Source: Spizellomyces punctatus DAOM BR117 (lineage: Eukaryota; Chytridiomycota; Chytridiomycetes; Spizellomycetales; Spizellomycetaceae). Taken from it: a stretch of 64,000 nt of DNA. Below the pieces are notes generated by a model, which did no database searches, was not told the origin of the DNA, and saw nothing but the letters and a program-made list of their open reading frames with translations. Below are positions 46,106 through 50,043 of the stretch, in pieces (the first letter of the stretch is position 1; each line of letters starts with the position of its first letter). The position numbers and the translations under genes are program-made. Location of the stretch: positions 585,961 to 649,960 of the forward strand of contig NW_015971537.1 in NCBI RefSeq assembly GCF_000182565.1. The letters are read 5' to 3'.

Positions 46106-47657
46106 ATGTCTAGAGCCCGTCCTTTGAACCCAAAGCCCATATTTGACGAGGAGCTAGTCCTTGAAGCATTCAGGAAAAACAAGATCAAAGAGTCCAATGC
46201 TGCTAAACTTTGGCGTTACCTTATACAGCAACCCGAGAAAACTATAGACGAGATTCCCGACTTCCCAAAAGCGGCGAGAAAGCTAATTGATGATGAGTTT
46301 GTGATAACGACGTCAAAAGTAATATCTCGCACCGATGCAAAGGATGGTAGTACGACAAAGCTACTGATAGAGCTACAGGACGGGCAGCGGGTGGAAAGTG
46401 TAATCATGCGTTATGGAGAGGTTGAACTGGACTGTTTTCCAGAAGAGGAGGAGAGAAGGAAGAGGCGACGGAGGGAAGGGAATGGAGAAGATGGAGAGGA
46501 AATACTGGAGTTTCGATCGAATAAACGAGCCACGTTGTGCGTTTCGTCTCAAGTAGGGTGTGCCATGGGGTGTACATTTTGTGCAACAGGAACGATGGGA
46601 CTTCTTTCAAACTTGGCAGCTGGTGAGATTATCGAGCAGCTCTATCATGCGAACAAGATTGAGAAAATCCGAAATATAGGTTGGCGCAGTCATTTCTCTC
46701 CTTATGATGCTACAACTCATTTTATTGACGAATTCTCCTGATTAAGTGTTCATGGGTATGGGAGAGCCACTCGACAATTATAATGCAGTCATGGCAGCCG
46801 TCCGAGCCATGGTTGATACTGGCCGGTTTGGCCTTGCCCCTTCAAGGATATCTGTCTCGACCGTAGGAGTCGTACCTAGAATCCATAGTCTGATCAAGGA
46901 TGCTCCCAACATAGGCCTGGCGCTTTCCTTGCATGCACCAAACCAGACCCTTCGCCAGCAAATTGTTCCTACCGCCAAAGCTTGGCATGTGGATAGAATA
47001 CTTTCCGCTTGTGACGCGTTCATAGATCACCAGAACGGGTTGATCAAATCTACGAATCGGCGTCGCCATATTCTTGTTGAATATGTCTTAATCAGGGACG
47101 TCAATGACTCCCAAGAAACCGCCCACGAATTAGGCCAACTGCTGAAGGGGCGACATGTTCTCTTGAACGTCATTCCATATAATCCAACATCAGTACCGCA
47201 TGATTACAAGACTCCGAATAGAGAAGACAGTCGTCGCTTCGTGGAGACGGTGCGGGAATACGGCGTTCATACTCTCTTGCGTCAAACCCTAGGAGCAGAT
47301 GCAGCCAGTGCTTGCGGTCAGCTAGTCATTGATAATGGCGGACAAAAGACCAGCGGACAGTGTGGGGACGATAAGGGCACAGGAAATGGAGTCGCCGATC
47401 TGGAAGATTTGCTACAGAATACTGGAGCTGGTAAAAATGGAGTAAAAGTATCCATCAAGTATCGCAAGAAAGCCCCGTCACTCGCCACTCCTACTGGTGT
47501 GGAACGAAATCCTCTGGACACACTCCAATCTGGCACGGCAGCTCTTACCAAGAGAAGGTCACGGCTGAAGGTGGCAACATTGTGTGCTTTATGTATATTA
47601 TTTGCTGTGGTGCTGGGTAGGGTAGTCCTAAGATCTCTGGGTTTGGCAACTGTATAG
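46106..47657 (+). CDS. rlmN: RlmN-type radical SAM RNA methyltransferase with C-terminal anchor
   Basis: Two exons (46106-46679, 46747-47657) encode 494 aa. The N-terminal 130 residues match the RlmN accessory domain. The radical SAM cluster motif is CAMGCTFC. The two Cys used in catalysis are present: one in [12 protein letters not shown] and one in [28 protein letters not shown] and NVIPYNP complete the family pattern. Bacterial RlmN methylates C2 of A2503 in 23S rRNA and A37 of some tRNAs. In a fungus the target is probably organellar rRNA or tRNA, which is inference. The last 110 residues are additional and end in a hydrophobic helix ([17 protein letters not shown]), suggesting tail anchoring. 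I see no obvious mitochondrial presequence. It ends 107 bp before the Fanzor element. Confidence 0.9.
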
Positions 47658-47764
47658 CATAGAAGATATATTTGCATTATTTCATTTGTAACATAGGCGT
47701 GGATAATGAGGGGATGTCTTCTGGAAAGGAGAATGGGATTTGGAATTACAGGAAGATTTACATA

Positions 47765-47794
47765 GTGCGGAGCCGATGGGTATTGGCACTAGTA
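47765..47794 (+). repeat. Left terminal inverted repeat of the Fanzor element
   Basis: Starts GTGCGGAGCCGATGGGTATT and continues 'ggcactagta'. It matches the reverse complement of 49871-49900 with mismatches at positions 11 and 29 only. The preceding four bases are CATA. Confidence 0.92.
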
Positions 47795-47868
47795 CATAGA
47801 TTCCAACCAATTTAATCATAATTTTACTCGATTTAGACTCATGAACTGTGGTTTGATCCAAAAAATCC

Positions 47869-47876
47869 TATATAAG
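47869..47876 (+). promoter_or_regulatory. TATA-box candidate of the Fanzor gene
   Basis: TATATAAG lies 71 bp upstream of the Fanzor ATG, at a distance expected for a short 5' leader. An out-of-frame ATG at 47924 could act as a short upstream frame. Confidence 0.4.
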
Positions 47877-47946
47877 TCATCGTGCCCATTTTCCCAGGCT
47901 TTCGTCTTTTTCAGATATCATCAATGCCACAGATACAGATATCATC

Positions 47947-49813
47947 ATGCCGCCAAAGAAAAAGCAAAAACTCGAAAAACTCGACAAACCCACCTTACAT
48001 ACCTGCAACAAAACTTCCTTTGCAAAAGCTTTCCTGCCAAACTACCACCAACGGCTTCTAGATTACATCGCCATCATCCATCAACTTGCCGACCACGCTT
48101 CCCACGCTCTCAAATTCTACATCCTATCTGCACCATCCTTCACCGTGAACGAGGAGACCATCGAAGCGATTCTCTATCTTCTCAACAAGGGGGAGGCTTG
48201 GCATCCAAGAAAGGAAGCAAAGAAGGCATGGCAGGATTGTTTGCTGCCATATGTTCAACAGTACTGCCAAATCGTCGGCTTCGTTCACCCAAATCTACGA
48301 GGCGAGCAGCAATCAGTCAATTACCTGACAGCGAGTATGATGATGAACCTAAAAGTCAACGTTCAAGAGCATTTCATGCAGATGCTCCTTCAGTATATCA
48401 ATCTGCAGCTCGATGTGAAGAGACAGAAGCAACTGCCACTGAAAAGCGATGCACAGAAAGCTTTCTTTACTCGACTATGCTATTTGAAGTCAGTTTTCCT
48501 TTTCGAAACCATGCCAGAATCGCTGGATGACTTGAGCATTCTTGAAAATGAGATTTTTAGAAGAGATCTGGACACTTAACCTGCCATTTCCTGATCAAGA
48601 CAAGCCACTTGCCTACCTCATTGCCATTGACGCGATGTCCTTCTTGCCTGCTTACTGTCGGTTGTCAAGCCTATATGAAAAGCATGGATTTCAACGGTTC
48701 AGTGCCATCCCACTTCGCTGCTCCCTCATCCAAAGCCATATTCGCATCGACACGGTCATTCTCTACGCCCACATCCTCTGCATCACCCGCCAAGGAGCAG
48801 AAGCTGTAGAGAAGGTCGATTTATGGTTGCGTGTCTGTAATCTGCGGAACAAGGCTTTTAGATCTCGCCGCGGTATGCAGTTTGAAGGCTCGATCACAAC
48901 GGATGGAACCTCAGTGTCTGTATACCTAAAGCACCCAGAAGCAGACAAGTATGGAAAGCGCGGAGCGAGAAAGTCAGCAAAGAGTTTAGAGGACGAAGTT
49001 AAAGTGCAATACATGGAGAAAAACTTACCTGCTTGTCGAGCAGCAGAGAATGTCGTTGTTATCGACCCAAACAAGCGCAATATTCTCTACTGCCAAGACA
49101 ACAGTGGTGTGACATTTCGCTACACCGCCAACCAGCGAGCCATGGAGACTGGAAGCCATCGATTTGCAAAAGAACGGCAGCAGATGAAGAAGGAAGCGGG
49201 AATTGACCTCATAGAATCATATATCCCTAGTCACAAGACAATGAACCTCATGGACTTCATGCGCTATCTCCTCGTTTGCCATCATGCAGATTCGGATTGT
49301 CGCAAGGAATTCTACTCCCACCCTGCCCACACGCGATGGAAATGGCACTCCTTCATCAATCAGCAGCAAAGTGAATCAAACCTCATATCCAACTTGTGCA
49401 ACAAATACGGTGAAAACTTTACCATTGTGATGGGTGATTGGAGCGATGCCGGTCGAACTGCAAGATTTCAGACCTCATCAAAGACAAAAGGTTGGCGCAC
49501 CCTCTTTAAGCGCAACAGGATCAACTGCTTCCTTCTTGACGAGTATAAAACCTCATCTGTCTGCCCTCACTGTTCCTCTGGCATTGAAAAAGGCTTCAAA
49601 ACACGACCTCATTCAAGACCTTGGCGCCGTCGCGAAGGCAAGATTGAAAAAGTCCATGGATTGCTGGGTTGTACCAACCCTAACTGTCAGCAAGCCTGGA
49701 CGATGCGCTACTGGAATCGAGATACACTGAGCACCTGCAACATGCTGATGATCGTGCAATCAATGTTGGATGGACATGGTAGATCAGAAGTGTTCAGCCT
49801 GTTCCAGCCGTAG
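47947..49813 (+). CDS. Fanzor RNA-guided nuclease (TnpB-like), one frameshift
   Basis: Two overlapping frames together encode about 621 aa: 47947-48579 (211 codons) and the rest to 49813, joined only by a one-base shift between 48536 and 48576. Residues 1-11 carry a nuclear localisation signal (MPPKKKQKLEK). RuvC-I Asp lies in VVVIDPNKRN (about D373). The canonical RuvC-II site reads MGDWSDA, without Glu. The alternative Glu lies in LLDEYKTSSVC (about E532), the rearranged site described for Fanzors. The zinc ribbon is CPHC plus CTNPNC. RuvC-III Asp lies in WNRDTLSTCN (about D592). The set of motifs matches characterised Spizellomyces Fanzor1 proteins: RNA-guided DNA cleavage using an omegaRNA from the element's 3' end. 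The frameshift probably sits in the T5 run at 48553-48557; it may be a real mutation, an assembly error or programmed shifting. Confidence 0.92.
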
Positions 49814-49900
49814 CGTAGCGTAGATTAGTTTTTCCGAACCGGTTGTCGCCGGTTTATTCCCTGGTGCGGGTGCTAGTGCCAATACCCATTGGCTCCGCAC
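49814..49900 (+). ncRNA. Candidate 3' end of the Fanzor omegaRNA scaffold
   Basis: Between the Fanzor stop codon and the right element end lies a perfect 6-bp hairpin (AACCGG, loop TTGTCG, CCGGTT; 49837-49854), preceded by 'cgtagcgtagcgtag' and followed by the right inverted repeat. In Fanzor and TnpB systems the omegaRNA covers the 3' part of the element and its guide is the flanking sequence just past the right end, here beginning 'tattttgagttaccc'. The scaffold probably extends upstream into the coding sequence. This is inference from position and structure. Confidence 0.5.
49871..49900 (-). repeat. Right terminal inverted repeat of the Fanzor element
   Basis: The reverse complement starts GTGCGGAGCCAATGGGTATT and matches the left end over 28 of 30 positions. 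It is followed by TA, the presumed target duplication. Confidence 0.92.
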
Positions 49901-50043
49901 TATTTTGAGTTACCCTTTTGGATTCACCGTACTTCATATGCTTTGGAGGCCAACTTTGGTGTCACGTGAATATACAAGCTCCGTATGTTGTTTGTTGCGA
50001 CAATTTGGTAGATTCATAACTCATCGTTAGATCGACACCAATA

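Follow-up and report, generated by a model that had tools for sequence, protein, structure and literature searches.

Guided by RNA, the nuclease TnpB of the bacterial IS200/IS605 elements cuts the vacated donor site again behind its target-adjacent motif (TAM), and in this way keeps or copies the element. The study by which Fanzor came to be recognised as an RNA-guided nuclease summarises this role and describes the biological role of Fanzor itself as unknown (PMC10432273). In Spizellomyces punctatus, the transposon SPu-1 was described with 33-bp repeats and putative TA duplications, and three Fanzor1 families were counted in the species (PMC3627910). The SpuFz1 family comprises 42 full or partial Fanzor loci and 134 ghost loci, with a conserved CA at the left and, as reported, no transposase within the repeats (PMC10432273). 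The TAM of SpuFz1 measured in vitro is CATA, which is needed for cleavage; the RNA scaffold is 75 nt long with a guide of 14-15 nt, and RNAs from ghosts guide SpuFz1 in human cells (PMC10432273). RNA-guided cutting behind CATA was established in vitro on designed targets (PMC10432273), and the TAMs TTAAN and ATN are known for the Fanzor1 proteins GtFz1 and PpFz1, respectively (PMC10432273, PMC11423790). A further Fanzor1-only element with inverted repeats is the Fanzor1 transposon of the Spodoptera frugiperda ascovirus, in which, as in other Fanzor1 RNAs, the repeat and the duplicated bases lie within the RNA scaffold (PMC10711439).

The locus studied here belongs with SPu-1/SpuFz1 and its ghosts, sharing with them the genome, the repeats, the TA, the left CA, the 75-nt scaffold, the geneless ghosts and the lack of an internal transposase (PMC3627910, PMC10432273). 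It differs from the published form in that its gene is frameshifted and its RNA core is of the ghost type. A reading of the locus made from the sequence alone was largely right, and its central point was already in print, since the CA conserved at the left, CATA as the TAM and the absence of a transposase have all been published (PMC10432273). What is new here is a test of the side on which the flank motif stands, and a natural swap of the right end. Neither the one-sidedness test nor ghosts with an exchanged right end appear in the accessible parts of the SPu-1/SpuFz1 account (PMC3627910, PMC10432273), an exchange of RNA modules on a common left end is not described in those of the ascovirus report (PMC10711439), and a literature search that excluded supplementary files and most subscription papers returned nothing on the test or the swap.

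A decayed Fanzor1 transposon

The window is the whole stretch of S. punctatus DAOM BR117 DNA that was analysed, 64,000 nucleotides long; the names under which proteins of other copies are recorded point to this genome. The element at 47765-49900 belongs to SPu-1/SpuFz1, the Fanzor1 transposon already described from this species (Table 1). Its inverted arms (47762-47795 and 49870-49903) are 34 nt long and 94% complementary, including the inverted repeats of about 30-33 bp typical of SPu-1/SpuFz1; CATA directly abuts GTGCGGAGCC at the left end, and the right end GGCTCCGCAC is followed by TA. The sequence-only reading had described repeats of about 30 bp, TA on both sides, CATA at the left end and no transposase, all of which we recovered, no transposase being seen by eye among the frames of at least 60 aa inside the element. 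It had also proposed a search of the assembly for other copies, which yielded at least 91 matches to the element in the same genome (40 of the 195 first-look candidates scored). The flanking TA would represent a target-site duplication, and a TA owned by the element would give the same picture; the repeat-rich flank of L009, considered as internal evidence of the duplication, was ambiguous.

Table 1. Features of the Fanzor1 element and its flanks, in window coordinates.
Feature	Position	Strand	Remarks
CATA left flank	47761..47764	+	identical to the published SpuFz1 TAM (PMC10432273); contains the TA taken as putative target-site duplicate on the left
Left terminal inverted repeat (GTGCGGAGCC...)	47765..47794	+	
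Fanzor1 N-terminal third, residues 1 to about 215	47947..48579	+	frame stops past the frameshift
Remainder of Fanzor1 (about residue 210 onwards), with the RuvC and zinc-ribbon part	48542..49813	+	
Putative omega-RNA scaffold (75 nt), which takes in the right repeat and the TA behind it	49828..49902	+	length from PMC10432273
Right terminal inverted repeat (...GGCTCCGCAC)	49871..49900	+	
TA 3' of right repeat	49901..49902	+	putative target-site duplicate on the right; base-paired in the closing stem of the RNA
Putative guide of the window copy, right flank, 15 nt	49903..49917	+	inferred; guide length of 14-15 nt from PMC10432273

The transposon had been called complete, which does not hold for its gene. 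A frameshift near 48,550 leaves the two halves in different frames, and tblastn returned them as pieces corresponding to residues 1-215 and 210-635 that overlap at 48542-48558. Comparison with characterised Fanzors, as the earlier reading had suggested, identified the solved structure of SpuFz1 (8gkh) as a match to both the N-terminal frame (E 1.4e-106) and the second frame (E 1.5e-233), and neither of the two frames matched a Pfam family. The longest ATG-started frame of this copy is 421 aa, and a frame of at least 600 aa is present in 11 of 19 long copies checked. The residues named as TAM contacts of SpuFz1, R96, Q129, Q130 and N133 (PMC10432273), are retained in the first frame, as judged by eye in the alignment. 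The broken gene reflects decay of a member of SPu-1/SpuFz1 rather than a separate family. Since its own gene is frameshifted, retention of the window copy would need protein supplied in trans.

Two open frames adjoin the element at window 46106-47657. Judged from a CxxxCxxC motif, they resemble an RlmN-type radical SAM methyltransferase.

As candidates for a Tc1/mariner-type DDE transposase that may act on these repeats, we identified two matches to DDE_3 in the genome (four candidates scored), 0.8 and 2.1 kb downstream of ghosts on C3 and C5, positions that may be due to chance. At the C3 match (L091:1327-2544) the frame is open over 405 aa and includes HTH_23; the C5 match (L092:1501-1596) is a short remnant containing a stop. 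The DDE_3 gene by ghost L086 was rejected as an autonomous partner, as none of 16 inverted pairs in L091:1150-2740 resembled the family repeats by eye. A small ghost-encoded protein was also rejected, an early stop being present in one of the two ghosts read by eye. Two further loci, L089 and L090 (C3:1224 kb and C3:1262 kb), hold the same ghost with the same flanks, so that a segment of some 1.4 kb or more has been duplicated.

Structure of the right-end RNA

An alignment of 32 right ends, drawn from Fanzor copies, from ghosts and from a third type of repeat, spans 81 columns and contains two stems, which RNAalifold also predicts. In this structure, which was drawn on the same 32 sequences used for its test, 99.0% of cells are paired, compared with 31-50% when the stems are slid, and 30 cells are changed on both sides, compared with 10.5 in shuffles; none of 500 shuffles was as high for this count, or reached the covariation score. 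Four pairs have changes on both sides, which is no more than shuffling gives (269 of 500 shuffles had at least as many), and 470 of 500 shuffles equalled or exceeded the observed number of pair types. The subfamilies differ in their repeats and the pairing nonetheless persists, indicating that the RNA stem has been kept. The right TA (alignment columns 80-81) pairs in the closing stem; target-duplication bases in a Fanzor1 RNA stem have been reported earlier (PMC10711439).

Judged from its sequence, the right end of the window copy would form the stems of the SPu-1/SpuFz1 family. Its RNA core, GGTTTATTCCCTGGTG, is of the ghost type and is unique among 40 aligned Fanzor-type right ends; the same core occurs at 102 places genome-wide, and its reversed control at none. 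A ghost-type core stands between Fanzor-type repeats at window 49851-49866, and such a mosaic suggests that Fanzor copies and ghosts have undergone gene conversion with one another. The B-box-like GGTTCAATCCC in the RNA core was dropped as a candidate Pol III promoter, as the ghosts and the window copy read GGTTTATTCCC. A third right-end type (...TTGCCAATACACTA) is found on the same RNA core in L072, L078, L082, L084, L028 and L036, of which L028 and L036 contain Fanzor gene sequence. A comparison of 141 guides with 366,661 bases (some counted twice, about 1.5% of the genome) found no match elsewhere, which says little.

The flank motif is enriched at the left only

Insertion at TA that is blind to orientation would place CATA at the left and its mirror TATG at the right equally often. 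Among Fanzor copies with a readable left end (which omits L043, with an eroded end), left CATA is present in 31 of 34; the expectation that all copies follow CATA held for these, and failed for the other three, which read TATA. The right mirror TATG is present in 5 of 41 Fanzor copies, a count that includes L035 and L058, two loci with a common right flank. For ghosts with a SpuFz1-type right end, CA precedes the left TA in 67 of 73 (among 100 of 119 left ends listed, from one ghost subfamily with at most 3 mismatches), and TG follows in 5 of 100 ghost right ends, which come from a separate list (100 of 108, one pair on C3 being duplicates) and are not the same 73 elements. As background, CA precedes 7.5%, and TG follows 7.0%, of the 3,295 TA sites in the window. 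The left excess over background is about 130-fold in odds, and the right flank is at background (p 0.21 and 0.56). Because CATA is the TAM of SpuFz1 in vitro (PMC10432273) and is enriched at the left only, the left flank is best read as the nuclease's own target-adjacent motif, as the sequence-only reading had proposed.

Beyond the CA, position -3 of the left flanks is A in 47 of 75, and position -4 is A or T in 63 (among 100 of 119 left ends listed), a context wider than the published 4-base TAM (PMC10432273).

Ghosts with an exchanged right end have a different left flank

Ghost left ends preceded by CTTA, ATTA or TTTA form a separate class (among 100 of 119 listed). The single element of this class that was read through, L093, has a ghost-type left end and body, 88% identical to L083 over 569 columns, and a different last 190 bp. 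This other right end occurs at 25 places genome-wide by pattern and at 27 by DNA search, one of them partial.

We paired left and right ends by position and strand, using the 100 of 119 left ends listed. With a SpuFz1-type right end (n=73), the two bases before the TA position are CA in 67, TA in 3, AA in 2 and TG in 1, and TA is intact in 71; with the exchanged right end (n=19) they are CT in 8, TT in 6, AT in 4 and CA in 1, and TA is intact in 17; and with neither right end (n=8) they are CA in 7 and AT in 1. T thus precedes TA in 18 of 19 exchanged elements and in 0 of 73 SpuFz1-type elements (Fisher p=3e-18, same 100 of 119 left ends), the sole CA among the 19 being followed by GA. Six more exchanged right ends, besides that of a gene on C7, have no left end among the 100 of 119 listed. 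On the other side, A or T stands 3' of the exchanged right ends in 24 of 25, compared with 77 of 100 other right ends (100 of 108 listed).

The exchanged right-end RNA module therefore goes with a changed left flank, which supports the view that the motif follows the RNA and nuclease module rather than the left end. As the left end is constant while the right end and the left flank change, a preference exercised via the left end does not explain the swap. A nuclease programmed at the right end and reading its TAM at the left does explain it, and retention is the simplest account. The ghosts differ in this from IS200/IS605, in which TnpA itself inserts behind the motif, so that the motif alone does not demonstrate nuclease action; in the ghosts the motif changes on a constant left end.

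The rival that survives best is that the inserting enzyme itself picks CATA on one side, the exchanged ghosts having been moved by another enzyme that prefers T-TA-W. The exchanged right ends do differ in their repeat too, they show an A/T excess on the 3' side, and the context at -3 and -4 described above extends past the TAM. However, the left end is common to the two classes as far as the search pattern shows, and yet the flank of that end differs, and CATA coincides with the TAM of the nuclease in vitro (PMC10432273), so that we regard selection by the inserting enzyme as unlikely. The A/T bias 3' of the exchanged right ends may still reflect the inserting enzyme, perhaps a different one.

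A second Fanzor1 gene carries the exchanged right end

The only match in the genome over the cut-off for PF07282 (TnpB/Fanzor zinc-ribbon) lies at C7:74605-74832, and a copy of the exchanged right end starts beside it, at C7:74896. Read by eye, this locus (L094) encodes the C-terminal half of a Fanzor1, with GVDPGR, DEFRTS and CSHC followed by CNDLC, HWNRD and a stop; the CSHC and CNDLC parts are separated by an apparent 63-bp intron. From the last ten codons to the right end, 173 of 175 bp (99%) equal L093. The C7 Fanzor, read without its middle (C7:73,280-73,899), is 24% identical to SpuFz1 over 240 columns and matches the solved SpuFz1 structure (E 5.6e-8). It is probably one of the other two Fanzor1 families of S. 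punctatus (PMC3627910), and the exchanged elements look like ghosts that took over its right end. From 18 of 19 left flanks (100 of 119 left ends listed), the TAM of this second Fanzor would be HTTA.

Upstream of the C7 gene we found a single terminal-repeat-like sequence (about C7:72,778, L095/L096), which is preceded by CATA, not HTTA. In alignment, this stretch resembles a segment of another subfamily that has been inverted and rearranged. The gene's own left flank is therefore ambiguous, and it may read CATA, which counts against the retention account. A tandem unit of about 30 bp (ATTGGACCCGTTTTCATGCTGGCCACACAT) is located 5' of the C7 gene at L095:301-381, and several of the longer Fanzor copies, L019, L043 and L048 among them, have related units in their left part.

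A left flank that does not confirm HTTA would also fit an origin of the T-TA class through a different nuclease or through past recombination, with the C7 Fanzor a bystander. We give this reading about as little credence as an insertion preference, if not marginally less, as the C7 gene holds the sole PF07282 match over the cut-off in the genome, and shares 99% identity with L093 across its final codons and right end.

Discussion

We consider it likely, and the best explanation of these data, that the element in the window is a decayed SpuFz1 copy from a family in which RNA-guided retention sets the left motif through the right-end RNA module. Under this model, a transposase acting in trans would insert elements at TA, and the right-end RNA, running into the right flank, would carry a guide against the element's own empty site. 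Fanzor would cut the empty site only if its TAM stood at the left, and repair from an occupied copy would then restore the element. Insertions behind the TAM of the nuclease would persist and others would be lost; and since the RNA module at the right end would set the motif, ghosts with the module of the second Fanzor would persist behind a T before TA. Counted against this explanation are the three TATA Fanzor copies, which misfit a TAM needing every base, unless they mutated after insertion.

That CATA belongs to the element as a conserved terminus (left end CATAGTG..., without TA duplication) is highly improbable, for although CA is nearly invariant beside SpuFz1-type elements, it lies outside the inverted repeat, exchanged ghosts keep the terminus TAGTGTGGAGG but lack the CA, and the nuclease needs CATA next to its target (PMC10432273).

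The sequence-only reading had further proposed that the nuclease favours retention of its element. The one-sided motif and the swap speak for this in the family, but the window copy, with its frameshifted gene, cannot do so itself. A one-sided motif that follows the RNA module favours retention, recutting of native empty sites being a step that we infer.

More broadly, and with a little less assurance than for the explanation above, we think it probable that two Fanzor systems share one transposon chassis in one genome, that swapping the right-end RNA module swaps the motif at an unchanged left end, and that the sites at which eukaryotic DNA transposons persist are determined by RNA-guided cutting, which would act in trans and even for geneless elements. 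The relatives of the window copy suggest that the cutter, rather than the jumping enzyme, decides at which sites elements survive. A motif found on the nuclease's side alone and varying with the RNA module provides evidence, across the genome, that Fanzor has a role in keeping DNA transposons in place, a role that would extend to elements without a Fanzor protein, and suggests that Fanzor TAMs may be readable from the flanks of ghost elements.
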